Origin: Maribacter cobaltidurans
GTDB lineage: Bacteria; Bacteroidota; Bacteroidia; Flavobacteriales; Flavobacteriaceae
Direction: 5' to 3'
Assembly: GCF_002269385.1 (NCBI RefSeq)
Contig: NZ_CP022957.1
Location: forward strand, 1,731,001-1,795,000
Length of the DNA stretch: 64,000 nt
A program made the position numbers and the translations under genes. Positions within the stretch are counted from its first letter, which is position 1; each line of letters starts with the position of its first letter. Shown here in pieces: positions 19,657 through 24,607 of the stretch. The notes under the pieces were generated by a model. It ran no database searches, was not told where the DNA came from, and saw nothing but the letters and a program-made list of their open reading frames with translations.

Positions 19657-19680
19657 AAGCCCTTTTTAGGGGCTTTTTAT
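19657..19680 (+). terminator. Intrinsic terminator at the left end of the IS
   Basis: AAGCCC (19657-19662) pairs with GGGCTT (19670-19675), followed by a T-run on the plus strand. A second hairpin AAAAGAG-AC-CTCTTTT precedes it at 19641-19656. It would stop read-through from the orphan membrane gene into the element's antisense strand. Confidence 0.6.
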
Positions 19681-21276
19681 TTTTAGGACGACCGGGCAAT
19701 CTAGATTTTTGGGCAACCCTACAAGTGTTCTTTCAAGTTCTTGGCACCCGTTTTTTATAAAAAATAACAAAGCAAGTTTCCCCGCCCCGCTCCCGATAGC
19801 TATCGGGATGGAACGTTTTTGGTCGAATTTCAGGTATTTTTTCAGGTTGTACGCGATTGCCGAGAGGTGCATCGCCTTGTTGGCCTGTTTCAATCCTATG
19901 GTATTTATCTTCCTGAGCCCCATAAACTGGGTAAGGGTGCCGAAAACGGGCTCGACCGTGCTCTGCCGTTTGCCCTTCATATACCTGCCCTGTGGGCCCT
20001 CGACCCGGGCAATGTTCCTTTCGTACTCGGCCCGGTAATAGGTAACGGTGAACTTCTTTTCCTGTGCGCTTTTGCCCAGGCACCGTGCCCGTAAGGGACA
20101 GCCAAGGCAGACATGCTTTCTTGCGCGGTACTCCTTCTTCTTTGTCTTGGTGCGGTAATCCAAAAACACTTTGGTAAATGGTATCACCTTGCCCTGTGGA
20201 CAGATATAATGATCTTCCGTATTGTTATAGGTGAACCCGTCCGGACCACCCTTGTACGTGCCATGGGGCGGGATGAAGCTCTTCAGTCCCCGGGCTTCCA
20301 GAAAGGCGTAGTTCTCCCCACTGCTGTAACCGGTGTCCGCTACGCAGTTCTCCCATACCAGGCCTTCTTTCCAGAGCCTGCGTTTTACGCGCTTTACGAT
20401 GTCCGGGAGGTGTTGGTTGTCCTTCCCGTCCGCATGGTAGGCCCTGATGTCCGTAATGACGTGGTGGGCCGTATCAACGCTCAGTTGGCCCAGGTAGTTC
20501 AGCTTTCTCGCCTTGCCCGGTTTTACGCTTATACGCGCATCGGGGTCCGTGGGGCTGTAATGTGTTTTGTTACTGGTATACTTGGCCCCCTTGTTACCGG
20601 CCCCCGGCCGTTGGTCCTGGTCCTTCGCCCACTTCTTGTTGCGGCCCTTTATGGCGGAGAGCTCATTGGCGTTGGCGGTAACACTTCGTTGTCCTTTATC
20701 GGACCTGTCGCCCTTGCTCTTGCGGTGGGGCACTTCTTTATCCATCGAACTAAGGACCCGCACCTTCCGCAGGTGTTCTTGCAGCTCTTCCTCCGGTACC
20801 TTCAGTTCCAAGGTATCCATGCTCGCGTTCGCCTTTACCGGCGCACTGTCGATCGCCTGGGTATGCCCGCTGACCATACCCTTGTCCGCGCACATACTCA
20901 AAACCTTGGTGAAGACTTCCTCGAACACACTTTCCGGGAACAGTTGGCGCGTACGGCTTATCGTAGAATGCCATGGCAGCTCCTCGTCGATATCGTAGCC
21001 GATAAAGTAAAGGACGTCCAAGCGCATCGAACAATGGTCGATCAGCTTGCGGTCGCTGATAATGTTCTCCAGATAGCCCACAAGGCACAGTTTGAAGAAG
21101 ACCACCGGGTCGATGCTCTTCTGGCCGCTTTCGCCATAATACCCCTTGGTCAAAGGGTAGAGAAAGTCAAGGTCCAAAGCCCCTTTCAAACGCCTGTAGA
21201 AATTGTTCTCGGGTATACGCTCGCTCAACTGGAAATGTGCGAACAGTTTTTCCTGGTAATCCTTTTTTCCCTGCAT
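19666..21276 (-). CDS. IS1182-family transposase
   Basis: A 536-residue DDE transposase, full length for the family and without frameshift, so possibly active. Opening MQGKKDYQEKLFAHFQLSERI and YRRLKGALDLDFLYPLTKGYYG are typical IS1182 N-terminal text. The catalytic domain includes TQAIDSAPVKANAS, HYSPTDPDARI, LSVDTAHHVITDI, NCVADTGYSSGENY and the C-terminal STVEPVFGTLTQFMGLRKI. A Cys-rich zinc-binding motif (HVCLGCPLRARC) lies before the last part. I used the ATG at 21276; an upstream in-frame start at 21309 adds 11 residues unlike the family. Confidence 0.95.
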   Translation of the reverse strand: MQGKKDYQEKLFAHFQLSERIPENNFYRRLKGALDLDFLYPLTKGYYGESGQKSIDPVVFFKLCLVGYLENIISDRKLIDHCSMRLDVLYFIGYDIDEELPWHSTISRTRQLFPESVFEEVFTKVLSMCADKGMVSGHTQAIDSAPVKANASMDTLELKVPEEELQEHLRKVRVLSSMDKEVPHRKSKGDRSDKGQRSVTANANELSAIKGRNKKWAKDQDQRPGAGNKGAKYTSNKTHYSPTDPDARISVKPGKARKLNYLGQLSVDTAHHVITDIRAYHADGKDNQHLPDIVKRVKRRLWKEGLVWENCVADTGYSSGENYAFLEARGLKSFIPPHGTYKGGPDGFTYNNTEDHYICPQGKVIPFTKVFLDYRTKTKKKEYRARKHVCLGCPLRARCLGKSAQEKKFTVTYYRAEYERNIARVEGPQGRYMKGKRQSTVEPVFGTLTQFMGLRKINTIGLKQANKAMHLSAIAYNLKKYLKFDQKRSIPIAIGSGAGKLALLFFIKNGCQELERTLVGLPKNLDCPVVLKIKSP

Positions 21277-21333
21277 ACCTAAAGTTACGATCGATCTACC
21301 GAACGGCAATGATCAAGACCGTTTTTTTCTTAA

Positions 21334-22047: not shown

Positions 22048-22239
22048 TTATTCCATAATGAAAACCTCTTCAATTCTCAACTTGAATACTTTTGAAATAT
22101 CATATGCTAGTTGAAGGGAAGGATTATATTTTCCTTTCTCAAGAAAAACAATAGTTTCTCTTCGTACCCCAACTTTTTTAGCCAGTTCAATCTGGGTCAA
22201 ATTATCCTTGGCACGGAGTTCCTTAATTCTTGTTGTCAT
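22048..22239 (-). CDS. Small XRE-family helix-turn-helix regulator
   Basis: A 63-residue single-domain Cro/C1-type repressor. The helix-turn-helix is [21 protein letters not shown] (around residues 14-34, motif given in part), followed by the dimer-supporting tail [19 protein letters not shown]. It overlaps the 3' end of the preceding membrane-protein gene by 17 nt, so the two are co-translated. Such pairs in Bacteroidota typically control their own expression; the target is not visible. Confidence 0.9.
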
Positions 22240-22648
22240 CTATGCCTACTCTTGAAAGGTACAACCGAATAAAAAGAAAAACGAGGGTCATCCCGGCCAT
22301 GCCAATCACTATTACCAATTTGGCTTTGTTTACTGAATCAACAGAAAATATATCTAGGGTAAACAAACCAACTAGCCACATATAAATGGAAATCCTAAAG
22401 GCCATCGAAGCAGCCTTTTGATTTATCTTTTTTGAGAGCTCGTCTTCAGGCTTTAAACCTGATTTGGCATCATTAAGTGCTTGAATACCAGAATAGATTA
22501 CAAATCCAACTATAACCAACATGACTCCAATAGTTCCGTAAGCGAATTCATTAAATGGCTTGGTTGTTTTGAATATCCAATAACCCATTAAACCCAAAAT
22601 AAGGGCCGCAACAGTAAACTTTACTATCGCTAAATTTTTTGCTTTCAT
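22223..22648 (-). CDS. Four-helix membrane protein paired with the XRE regulator
   Basis: A 141-residue integral membrane protein starting [11 protein letters not shown]. Membrane helices lie around residues 6-24 ([18 protein letters not shown]), 37-55 ([18 protein letters not shown]), 85-103 ([15 protein letters not shown]) and 112-130 ([17 protein letters not shown]). I chose this start over an upstream ATG at 22744 because the latter adds a non-conserved stretch. The stop lies inside the XRE gene's first codons. The pair resembles DUF2178-like membrane/XRE modules; function is unknown. Confidence 0.7.
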
Positions 22649-22789
22649 ATTTATGTTATTTATTTCTAACATGAAGTTAGATATATATAACTTTATGTGC
22701 AAGTAAATTCTGAAGAAATTACAATTGACTAAATAAAAATGCATAGAACAACGTGTAAGCGCAATTAAAGTGGATTCAGCTATAAAACT

Positions 22790-22972
22790 CTATTCAGAAC
22801 CCCTCCGCTTTTTAGAGTAGTAATAAAACAAATAGGCCACTAAAATCAAGACCACAAAAGGCAAATAGGTGCCAATGGCAACCCCTATTTCATAGGCACT
22901 GTCCGGAGCTTCCTCCATCTTCTTTTCTATTTCCGAAACATCCTGTAAAACCATAAATACACCCATAATCAT
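22790..22972 (-). CDS. Second copy of the small single-helix membrane protein next to xth
   Basis: A 60-residue protein identical over almost its whole length to the one at 24318-24512; only the last residues differ (RRGSE here). It has an acidic N-terminal half (VSEIEKKMEEAPDSAYE) and one membrane helix (LPFVVLILVAYLFYYY) with a basic tail. The start ATG overlaps the stop of the xth remnant as ATGA, as in the complete copy. It lies in the left 274-bp repeat and is the displaced copy left by insertion of the mobile module. Function unknown. Confidence 0.6.
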   Translation of the reverse strand: MIMGVFMVLQDVSEIEKKMEEAPDSAYEIGVAIGTYLPFVVLILVAYLFYYYSKKRRGSE

Positions 22973-23067
22973 ATATCTATTTCCAAACTGATGGGACAAT
23001 GGTCGCTGCCCATAATCTGGTCATGGATTTCAGCCGACTTCACCTTGGGTCACAGCGATTCGCTCAC
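22794..23067 (+). repeat. Left copy of a 274-bp direct repeat
   Basis: Matches 24334-24607 at 268 of 274 positions by eye (six substitutions, no gaps). It contains the last 33 codons of xth and most of the following small membrane-protein gene. Similarity stops sharply at both ends. Confidence 0.92.
22969..23067 (-). pseudogene. Remnant of exodeoxyribonuclease III (last 33 codons)
   Basis: Duplicate of the 3' end of xth, coding for VSESL through GSDHCPISLEIDI. Relative to the intact gene a TGG codon (Trp in SLWPK) has become TGA, so even this fragment is interrupted. There is no start codon or upstream coding region, and the sequence changes abruptly to the regulatory region of the mobile mystery module at 23068. 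Confidence 0.85.
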
Positions 23068-23106: not shown

Positions 23107-23221
23107 GTAAATTTAACTATTTACTTTTTTTTGTAATATGTAAATTAATTGATTTACTTTTTACTAAATTTGTAATGATTTTAATTTACATAATCAATAT
23201 TTTGTATACTTAATCATTTAC
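23107..23221 (+). promoter_or_regulatory. Array of four phased 18-bp palindromes upstream of mobile mystery protein A
   Basis: Sites of the form GTAAAT-N6-ATTTAC: 23107-23124 and 23140-23157 are perfect palindromic arms; 23172-23189 (GTAATG-N6-ATTTAC) and 23204-23221 (GTATAC-N6-ATTTAC) keep a perfect right arm and 4 of 6 bases of the left arm. Starts are 33, 32 and 32 bp apart, close to three helical turns, so all four face the same side of the DNA. The last ends 4 nt before the ATG. Most likely operators for the XRE protein encoded directly downstream (inference). Confidence 0.7.
23165..23172 (+). promoter_or_regulatory. Candidate -7 box of the mobile mystery operon
   Basis: TAAATTTG matches TAnnTTTG. 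It lies between the second and third palindromes and touches the first base of the third, so protein bound there would block the promoter. The -33 element is not clear. Confidence 0.42.
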
Positions 23222-23225
23222 AATA

Positions 23226-23687
23226 ATGAGAAATAAACGAAAACTTTTAGTTGAGCAGTTGAACCAAAAACTATTCCCATTCCTTGAATCAAGAAAGGTT
23301 GTGGTTCCAGAGCGTGGTTGGATAAATGCAATTCGAACCTCACTTAACATGACCATGGCCCAGCTTGGTGCCAAATTAAATATTACGAGACAAGGGGTAA
23401 AAAATATTGAAGAAAGCGAAGCCTATGGCAGGATATCGTTAAATTCATTAAAAGACGTGGCCCATGCGATGGACTTAAAATTAGTCTATGCACTGGTCCC
23501 ACAAAATGGCACCATTAACGATTTAATTCAAAACAAAGCTGAGAAGTTGGCTCAAAAGATAGTCTTGCGAACCAATCAAAATATGAAATTGGAAGACCAA
23601 GGAATAGGAGATGAAAAGATTTCCCAAACAATCAGGGAACTTGCAGAGGAAATAAGACGAGAAATGAGAAAATCACTATGGGATTAA
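23226..23687 (+). CDS. Mobile mystery protein A (XRE-type regulator)
   Basis: A 153-residue protein of the family named mobile mystery protein A, always found next to protein B on mobile DNA. Residues about 40-62 (LNMTMAQLGAKLNITRQGVK) form a Cro/C1-type helix-turn-helix, followed by the family-typical NIEESEAYGRISLNSLKDVA and MDLKLVYALVP. The C-terminal part is a charged helix (REL AEEIRREMRK region) that may dimerise or contact the partner. It overlaps the Fic gene by 10 nt. Likely represses its own operon and may restrain the partner; neither has been shown by this sequence. Confidence 0.93.
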   Translation: MRNKRKLLVEQLNQKLFPFLESRKVVVPERGWINAIRTSLNMTMAQLGAKLNITRQGVKNIEESEAYGRISLNSLKDVAHAMDLKLVYALVPQNGTINDLIQNKAEKLAQKIVLRTNQNMKLEDQGIGDEKISQTIRELAEEIRREMRKSLWD

Positions 23688-24286
23688 ATTTTGATTATCA
23701 GGATGGTCAAACCCCTTTAGACGTAGAAGAAAAGGAAGGTCTCAAAATTAAGTCCATTACTACCCAAGGAGAATTGGATGAATTTGAACAATTGAACATT
23801 GAAAAAGCGGTTGAATGGACGATTCATACAAATTTCAAACCTGAGAAAATATTAACTGAAAAATTTATCAAGGATTTACATAAAAGAATGTACGGCGATG
23901 TTTGGAAATGGGCTGGGGAGTTTAGAAAAACCGAAAAAAATATTGGGGTTCCATGGACACAAATCGGGATTGATTTAAAAAATCTAATGGATGACACAAA
24001 GTATTGGATAGAAAATAAATCATATTCCCCTGAAGAAATTACTATTAAATTCAAACACCGACTTGTCTCAATTCATTGTTTCCCAAATGGAAATGGGAGG
24101 CATTCCAGGTTGATGGCGGATATTATTATAGAATCCATATTCGGACAAAAAATATTCCCGTGGCATCAATCTAATATGGTTGAACCCAATGAAACAAGAA
24201 AAGCATATATCAATGCTTTAAAATATGCTGACAACGGAGATATTGAGCCATTGCTTGATTTTGCAAAAAACCAAACCGACAAATAA
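23678..24286 (+). CDS. Mobile mystery protein B (Fic-domain protein)
   Basis: A 202-residue Fic/DOC protein. Fic enzymes transfer a nucleotide moiety, usually AMP, to target proteins. The core motif HCFPNGNGRHSR is at residues 133-144: catalytic His133, Phe135, the GNGR anion hole and Arg144 are present, but the acidic Mg-binding position of HxFx(D/E)GNGR is Asn137. An N-terminal segment TTQGELDEFEQLNIEKA is typical of the family. No class-defining inhibitory motif (S/T)xxxE(G/N) is obvious. Translationally coupled to protein A. The pair could be a toxin-antitoxin-like or regulatory module; the function is unknown. Confidence 0.93.
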   Translation: MGLNFDYQDGQTPLDVEEKEGLKIKSITTQGELDEFEQLNIEKAVEWTIHTNFKPEKILTEKFIKDLHKRMYGDVWKWAGEFRKTEKNIGVPWTQIGIDLKNLMDDTKYWIENKSYSPEEITIKFKHRLVSIHCFPNGNGRHSRLMADIIIESIFGQKIFPWHQSNMVEPNETRKAYINALKYADNGDIEPLLDFAKNQTDK

Positions 24287-24317: not shown

Positions 24318-24512
24318 CTAAAGGCTATTCTCGTCAGTACCCCTCCGCTTTTTAGAATAGTAATAAAACAAATAGGCCACTAAAATCAAGACCACAAAAG
24401 GCAAATAGGTGCCAATGGCAACCCCAATTTCATAGGCACTGTCCGGAGCTTCCTCCATCTTCTTTTCTATTTCCGAAACATCCTGTAAAACCATAAATAC
24501 ACCCATAATCAT
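24318..24512 (-). CDS. Small single-helix membrane protein overlapping xth
   Basis: A 64-residue protein of unknown function with an acidic N-terminal half (QDVSEIEKKMEEAPDSAYE) and one hydrophobic helix (LPFVVLILVAYLFYYY) followed by SKKRRG. Its ATG overlaps the xth TGA as ATGA, indicating translational coupling. This is the copy attached to the intact xth; a near-identical copy lies at 22790-22972. The last residues (TDENSL) come from sequence outside the direct repeat. Confidence 0.65.
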   Translation of the reverse strand: MIMGVFMVLQDVSEIEKKMEEAPDSAYEIGVAIGTYLPFVVLILVAYLFYYYSKKRRGTDENSL

Positions 24513-24607
24513 ATATCTATTTCCAAACTGATGGGACAATGGTCGCTGCCCATAATCTGGTCATGGATTTCCGCCGACTTCACTTTGGGCCACAGCGATT
24601 CGCTCAC
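24334..24607 (+). repeat. Right copy of the 274-bp direct repeat
   Basis: Partner of 22794-23067 at a constant offset of 1540 bp. Here the sequence is part of the intact xth gene and its coupled small gene. Confidence 0.92.

Follow-up and report, generated by a model that had tools for sequence, protein, structure and literature searches.

Upstream of a gene pair named only "mobile mystery" A and B, the chromosome of Maribacter cobaltidurans carries four copies of an 18-base-pair (bp) palindrome at almost equal steps, which raises the question of what reads these copies and why their spacing is so regular. We analyzed a stretch of 64,000 nucleotides (contig NZ_CP022957.1, positions 1,731,001 to 1,795,000 of the forward strand; hereafter the window, in whose own numbering all coordinates are given) together with relatives of this locus. 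Our answer, drawn from sequence comparison, is that the mobile mystery A/B operon most probably regulates itself through this array, on which dimers of A would bind cooperatively and repress transcription, with A as the proposed antitoxin of B.

Four phased palindromes upstream of mobile mystery protein A

The sites have the form GTAAAT-N6-ATTTAC. Site 1 (23107..23124, GTAAATTTAACTATTTAC) and site 2 (23140..23157, GTAAATTAATTGATTTAC) carry no mismatch in either arm, and site 3 (23172..23189, GTAATGATTTTAATTTAC) and site 4 (23204..23221, GTATACTTAATCATTTAC) combine a perfect right arm with a left arm containing 2 mismatches, the site-to-site steps being 33, 32 and 32 bp. Between sites 2 and 3, immediately downstream of the former, we read a promoter box of the -7 type (TAnnTTTG; 23165..23172, plus strand, TAAATTTG) at position -61 relative to the start of A, whose last G is also the first G of site 3. 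The end of site 4 is separated by 4 bp from the ATG of mobile mystery protein A (23226..23687, plus strand), an XRE/helix-turn-helix (HTH) protein of 153 amino acids with an HTH_3 match and a TIGR02612 score of 143.7 bits (cut-off 122.6). The first-pass annotation of this DNA had described four palindromes with these arms and steps, a -7 box between the second and the third, and a mobile mystery A gene behind them, and all of this stands, with sequence and coordinates exact.

We compared the array with shuffled DNA and with the rest of the genome. Single matches with at most 3 mismatches are barely commoner in the window (78) than in its shuffles (mean 67.9, with 8 of 100 shuffles reaching 78), so that isolated sites mean nothing. 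For the phasing, we generated 20,000 dinucleotide shuffles of the 140-bp region (85% AT), of which 2 had two sites in phase and none had three or more; the concern that shuffled AT-rich DNA might often yield such phased matches, raised with the original observation, did not materialize. Elsewhere in the window, no pair of sites with at most 2 mismatches lies 31-34 bp apart. The exact pattern GTAAAY-N6-RTTTAC has 11 matches across the 4.64-Mb genome, compared with 5 for its reversed control, and sites 1 and 2 form the only close-together pair among these 11 matches.

Conservation of the pitch among relatives

TIGR02612 is patchily distributed, being found in 27 of 299 genomes of the family and in 45 of 395 genomes of the phylum at an E-value of at most 1e-15 (40 of them above the cut-off). 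Our sample comprised 144 loci, namely 132 non-plasmid loci (121 distinct A proteins) and 12 loci from alphaproteobacterial plasmids; chromosomes of other phyla were left out, and the scan of genome contigs covered the best 80 of 501 relatives. We then searched upstream regions for three mutually similar 18-bp palindromic windows at any period between 22 and 46 bp, with no motif given. The best period was 31-33 bp in 112 of the 118 distinct loci with enough upstream sequence, compared with 25 of 236 random other windows taken from the same loci, and 104 of the 118 loci beat all of 20 shuffles each.

This free-period scan is the unbiased result, because the sites obtained with class matrices (one per recognition-helix class) were chosen at 31-34 bp. 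With the matrices, the step was 32 bp in 144 of 162 cases for class I, 33 bp in 30 of 32 for class II and 32 bp in 52 of 60 for class III, and three or four sites were present in 53 of 61, 12 of 13 and 20 of 22 loci, respectively. The last site ends 2-6 bp before the start of A in 44 of the 61 class I relatives. Eight of the 12 alphaproteobacterial plasmid loci also show an array, with a pitch of 32-34 bp, that no more than 1 of 100 shuffles matched in one or both of the two windows tried.

Palindrome sequence and the recognition helix of A

In a structure model of A (mean predicted local distance difference test score, pLDDT, of 89), a long first helix is followed by HTH helices within residues 32-81 and by helices 97-122 and 129-146, with the recognition helix spanning residues 55-66 and starting at residue 55. 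Residues 54-62 align with those through which the phage 434 repressor contacts its operator, the 434 sequence itself aligning weakly there. Across loci, residues 54-62 of A covary with the half-site. Helix T[RK]QGVK is found with half-site GTAAAC or GTAAAT, TKQS[VI]Q mostly with GTCAG or GTAAG, TKGAIQK (class III) with nnATACATA, DRARVYR with GTTGTTATA, GRTGVKN with GTTCACATA, APSR[VI] with GnnCAT, SQQALSQ with AACAATnTA and RPQT with nTCAG. The proposal that GTAAAT-N6-ATTTAC would recur upstream of other mobile mystery A genes was borne out: 58 of 62 class I relatives with a clear array fall into the GTAAA class under a loose pattern, with 32-bp steps. One fixed GTAAAT motif for the entire family was rejected, as other helix classes carry other palindromes at the same 32-33-bp pitch, a result that extends past the single motif expected by the first-pass annotation.

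In a partial Mantel test, the correlation of helix distance with operator distance given the rest of the protein was r = 0.317 (the highest of 999 permutations being 0.141), and at an overall divergence of 0.2-0.3 the operator distance rose from 0.135 between proteins with equal helices to 0.316 between those whose helices differ. The helix-operator relation carries descent plus a specific helix term. In a tree computed without the HTH columns (130 rows; few columns, with 74 of 126 inner branches unresolved), 23 of the 24 class III rows cluster in a single starred group nested within class I, L026 standing apart, which indicates that helix and operator changed while the pitch was kept. The tree requires 24 changes for the helix label and 25 for the operator label, so that independent switches are fewer than loci. 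One class III pair, close to pairs from Flavobacteriaceae, comes from a record labeled Anaerotignum (Bacillota; L088), which is likely to be a mis-binned metagenome contig.

The Fic protein B and its putative antitoxin

Mobile mystery protein B (23678..24286, plus strand, 202 amino acids) has a Fic fold, with a TIGR02613 score of 249.9 bits (cut-off 124.4) and a Pfam Fic match of 42 bits (cut-off 24). A lies directly upstream with a 10-bp overlap, both proteins exceed the curated cut-offs of their mobile mystery families, and the HTH partner comes first; two adjacent genes with the DNA-binding partner leading is the gene layout of type II toxin-antitoxin systems. A Foldseek search with B gave 87 PDB matches at an E-value of at most 0.001, with Fic proteins among the matches listed, VbhT and EcFicT included (3shg, 3zc7, 5jff).

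The canonical AMPylation motif of Fic proteins is HxFx(D/E)GNGRxxR. B departs from it in the window, where the motif reads HCFPNGNGRHSR, and in relatives: of the 132 loci whose motif could be read, the window among them, 131 have HxFxNGNGRxxR, with N in place of D/E (B was found in 139 of the 144 loci, 7 of which gave no motif match; identical proteins were kept). B is shortened in L012, L041, L055, L060, L061, L069, L092 and L121, the one in L061 reaching the end of its locus, and A is present with no B found in L107, L110, L118, L129 and L131; contig ends may be responsible in either group.

At the end of helix 97-122 of A, L122 and E123 are invariant in all 130 A proteins, and residue 119 is S, T or N in 127 of them. 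Fic antitoxins carry an inhibitory motif, (S/T)xxxE(G/N). We found [ST]xxxE in 39 of 130 A proteins, and 8 of the 9 exact occurrences of [ST]xxxE[GN] in all A proteins are at residue 119. Judged from the sequence, the invariant Leu-Glu of A recalls this motif and may correspond to it.

Arrays upstream of other XRE genes

We examined other XRE genes as controls, requiring z >= 3 to call an array. None of the 22 testable HigA genes in the family (30 fetched) reached this threshold. Besides A itself and a gene lacking an ATG, the 10 XRE matches in the Maribacter genome comprise eight genes, all of which remained below z 3. An array as a general property of XRE genes was rejected on these two sets. 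HipB-like genes do have arrays, at 40-41 bp in 10 of 26 testable cases (30 fetched, few of them over the family cut-off), so that arrays as such are not unique to the mobile mystery family. These HipB-like genes (Flavobacteriaceae loci L163, L166-L172, L174 and L175) have 18-bp palindromes of a TATA type, and their half-sites differ by helix type (TATACC, TATATG). Arrays are a device common to several XRE antitoxins, and among the genes examined the strict 32-33-bp pitch was seen as a family trait only in mobile mystery A/B.

Proposed mechanism and alternative explanations

Within 150 bp before A, TAnnTTTG is present in 57 of 64 class I loci, with 38 of these boxes located between sites 2 and 3 at -60 to -62, and in 18 of 24 class III loci. 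Over 41 class I loci, the information per base is 0.95 bits in the arms, 0.31 in the 6-bp centre, 0.44 in the linkers and 1.29 in the -7 box. We infer that each 18-bp palindrome is a binding site for a dimer of A, which would read it with the recognition helix beginning at residue 55. The 32-33-bp spacing, about three helical turns, would set adjacent dimers on one face of the DNA, where they would probably touch each other, or contact a partner spanning the 14-15-bp linker, and thereby bind cooperatively. Phase alone would admit steps of any whole number of turns, and the near-constancy of the step at 32 or 33 bp makes direct contact or a bridge the likelier explanation. Least certain is the suggestion, made by analogy with Doc and Phd, that B could be the bridge between A dimers. 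With site 2 immediately before the -7 box, site 3 directly against it and site 4 close to the start codon, a filled array would stop the transcription of both A and B. A, with its central HTH and the invariant Leu-Glu ending helix 97-122, would neutralize a toxic B, and a drop in free A would derepress the operon. A "mobile mystery protein b" of Mesorhizobium loti ranks within the top 50 genes, by value, of a heat-shock table (M 4.02; PMC3989490), which fits, without showing it, derepression on loss of a labile antitoxin.

Other explanations of the array must be weighed against this one. As single motif matches are common in the window, the phasing could be an accident of AT-rich DNA, an explanation that we rejected on the shuffle test and the free-period scan: no shuffle of 20,000 had three sites in phase and the same pitch came out best in 112 of 118 distinct relatives, which leaves chance a negligible probability. 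It is also quite improbable that the palindromes are operators of another host regulator, such as a global XRE or a phage-type repressor. The genome does encode further XRE proteins, one of them about 1 kb away (22048-22239), but the palindrome follows the recognition helix of the neighboring A over many genera, A has an array in front of it in other genera and on alphaproteobacterial plasmids too, and no other two exact sites lie near each other in the genome. Leader RNA hairpins, acting in attenuation or protection, would be compatible with the ability of the palindromes to form hairpins and with sites 3 and 4 lying at or downstream of the -7 box, where they would be at least partly transcribed. 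Sites 1 and 2, however, are upstream of the promoter box, hairpins would need neither a shared sequence nor the constant spacing that the sites show, and the palindrome sequence follows the HTH helix; no Rfam family was found in the window at the gathering threshold, and we set this reading aside as extremely improbable.

The alternative closest in kind keeps A as the ligand and makes it a graded-occupancy switch in the manner of lambda CI or PaaR2, with sites that fill in order and activation possible at low A. The perfect arms of the window are indeed those of sites 1 and 2, upstream of the -7 box. Sites 3 and 4 are against the box or downstream of it, where binding would block transcription, and 8 of 13 class II loci show three sites only, all within about 90 bp of the start, which together make such a switch unlikely.

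Several observations speak against the array as a repressing operator of A with a family-specific pitch. The loci of the free-period scan are related by descent, so that 118 loci are not 118 independent trials, and the genome-contig set consists of the 80 closest of the 501 relatives. Fourteen of the 118 loci fail to beat all 20 shuffles, z is below 0.5 in L047, L110, L112, L123 and L124, and another period is best in L021, L028, L110, L123, L124 and L129; 4 of the 12 plasmid loci are below threshold (L142 weak, with 3 of 100 shuffles; L143, L133 and L144 fail). Two HipB-like genes score near 31-32 bp, namely L176 (the same as L146, near position 4455029 of the Maribacter genome, without an ATG), scoring z 3.4 for a candidate array at 31/30 bp when a non-ATG codon is taken as the start, and L191, with a candidate array of z 3.6 near 31-32 bp, so that genes outside the mobile mystery family may share the pitch. 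As common descent predicts, operator distance is also correlated with the rest of the protein given the helix (partial r = 0.399), and four of the 62 clear-array class I loci are outside the GTAAA class: three (L004, L028 and L061) look mis-registered, and L132, in which a class I helix start goes with a GnCAAG palindrome, is a real exception. Concerning the promoter, TAnnTTTG is found in just 5 of 15 class II loci and no -33 box was identified. Concerning the antitoxin, the exact [ST]xxxE[GN] motif is present in just 8 of 130 A proteins, and no solved relative of the C-terminal half of A appeared among alignment rows that cover the HTH (residues 26-91), which is no proof that none exists.

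A wider proposal is possible but doubtful. A/B modules might build a toxin-bridged repressor filament whose fixed 32-33-bp pitch, set by A-A or A-B-A contacts, has been kept across phyla; helix and palindrome would change together, so that modules would be insulated from one another like incompatibility or immunity groups while moving between genomes, in some Flavobacteriaceae as integron-like cassettes. The insulation is not supported by the sole two-copy genome of the first 27, in which both copies (L004 and L028) have class I helices.

Mobility and genomic surroundings

The A/B insertion is flanked by a 279-bp direct repeat consisting of the 3' end of xth and a small gene, with a left copy at 22789..23067 and a right copy at 24329..24607 (97% identity between copies). 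A locus of the same genus, L157 (genome G693), has a single repeat copy that is continuous with both flanks and shows the empty site; L156, L158 and L159 have one repeat copy beside xth, with left flanks without a match. Compared with L157, the left stretch is 95.9% identical and the right one 87.8%, a difference that may hint at the integration of a circle carrying one repeat copy. The insertion adjoins a small XRE gene (22048-22239, minus strand, 63 amino acids), which lies beside a weakly DUF2178-like membrane protein (22223-22744). A DDE transposase frame of the DUF772/DDE_Tnp_1_6 type (547 amino acids) is located at 19666-21309 on the minus strand.

Around A/B in some Flavobacteriaceae, an attC-like element of about 138 nucleotides with GCCAAC...GTTGGC ends is repeated on one strand (L031, 332-7715; L033, 194-7019; also L012, L045, L053, L054 and L106), recurring every 0.6-2.8 kb in L031 and L033, and these copies look like an integron-like cassette array. 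A search over 83 sources gave 51 matches at an E-value of at most 0.01, including the 5 training copies, and 0 matches in the window. Using a simple pattern, we found element ends on both sides of A/B in 14 of the 112 loci with readable flanks. The DNA folding z-score was -2.3 to -2.6 in 3 of 4 copies, and no Rfam match was over threshold in the 11 loci checked for the element. The integron-integrase model TIGR02249 gave two-piece matches, none over the cut-off, in all 8 genomes searched (those of L012, L031, L033, L045, L053, L054, L094 and L106); with matches also in 13 of 14 control genomes, those in these 8 genomes are a lead only.

Comparison with known systems

The closest parallel to the array is HipB of the hipBA operon in E. 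coli K-12, an XRE antitoxin with four 18-bp palindromic operators before its own gene, and the HTH fold of A matches the HipB-O1-O2 entry 4yg1. Taking TATCC-N8-GGATA to be the HipB operator motif, we found four exact copies at -134, -106, -67 and -39 of hipB. Their steps are uneven (28, 39 and 28 bp), unlike the even 32-33 bp of mobile mystery A, and the toxin is the HipA kinase and not a Fic protein; the window has GTAAAT-N6-ATTTAC at 33/32/32 and no array of the HipB type. PaaR2, which regulates the paaR2-paaA2-parE2 toxin-antitoxin operon, is reported to form an octamer in solution (PMC8630535). Unlike A, it regulates as a separate third component and faces a divergent operon, and its pitch would be shorter, at most about 26 bp, because its sites fit a 97-bp intergenic region.

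On the toxin side, Doc of phage P1 belongs like B to the Fic/Doc superfamily, and to our knowledge it has no GNGR motif. According to PMC4803016, operator-bound Phd dimers are bridged by the toxin, with conditional cooperativity, and Phd has a Phd/YefM fold, unlike the HTH protein A. The Foldseek matches of B to VbhT and EcFicT liken the pair to VbhT/VbhA and EcFicT/EcFicA, which are class I Fic pairs. VbhA has its antitoxin Glu at a helix end, and as far as we know VbhA and FicA are small and have no DNA-binding domain. Mobile mystery A/B differs from these pairs in the rarity of the exact inhibitory motif in A (8 of 130) and in the N of B where the motif usually has D/E. A search of protein sequences in phage records (IMG/VR left out) gave no match. 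At the cas locus of Geobacter sulfurreducens, a TIGR02612 gene beside a Fic gene has already been called an antitoxin (PMC3936711), and a limited literature search, covering parts of PMC4725956, PMC8649781, PMC3936711, PMC4750851, PMC4886054 and PMC3989490, found no operator described for the mobile mystery family.

A family with no name beyond "mobile mystery" thus gains a concrete, testable mechanism. In nature some ten kinds of operator pair with kinds of helix while the pitch stays fixed, which would make DNA reading, by the helix, separable from spacing, by dimer-dimer or toxin contact. This natural set could offer a specificity code for an XRE antitoxin that needs no further design, and would allow cooperative repression in a Fic system, possibly bridged by the toxin, to be tested cleanly. 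XRE antitoxins with operators of several sites are already known from HipB and PaaR2; the mobile mystery array varies this theme with a fixed pitch and a changing specificity, which can be put to a direct test.
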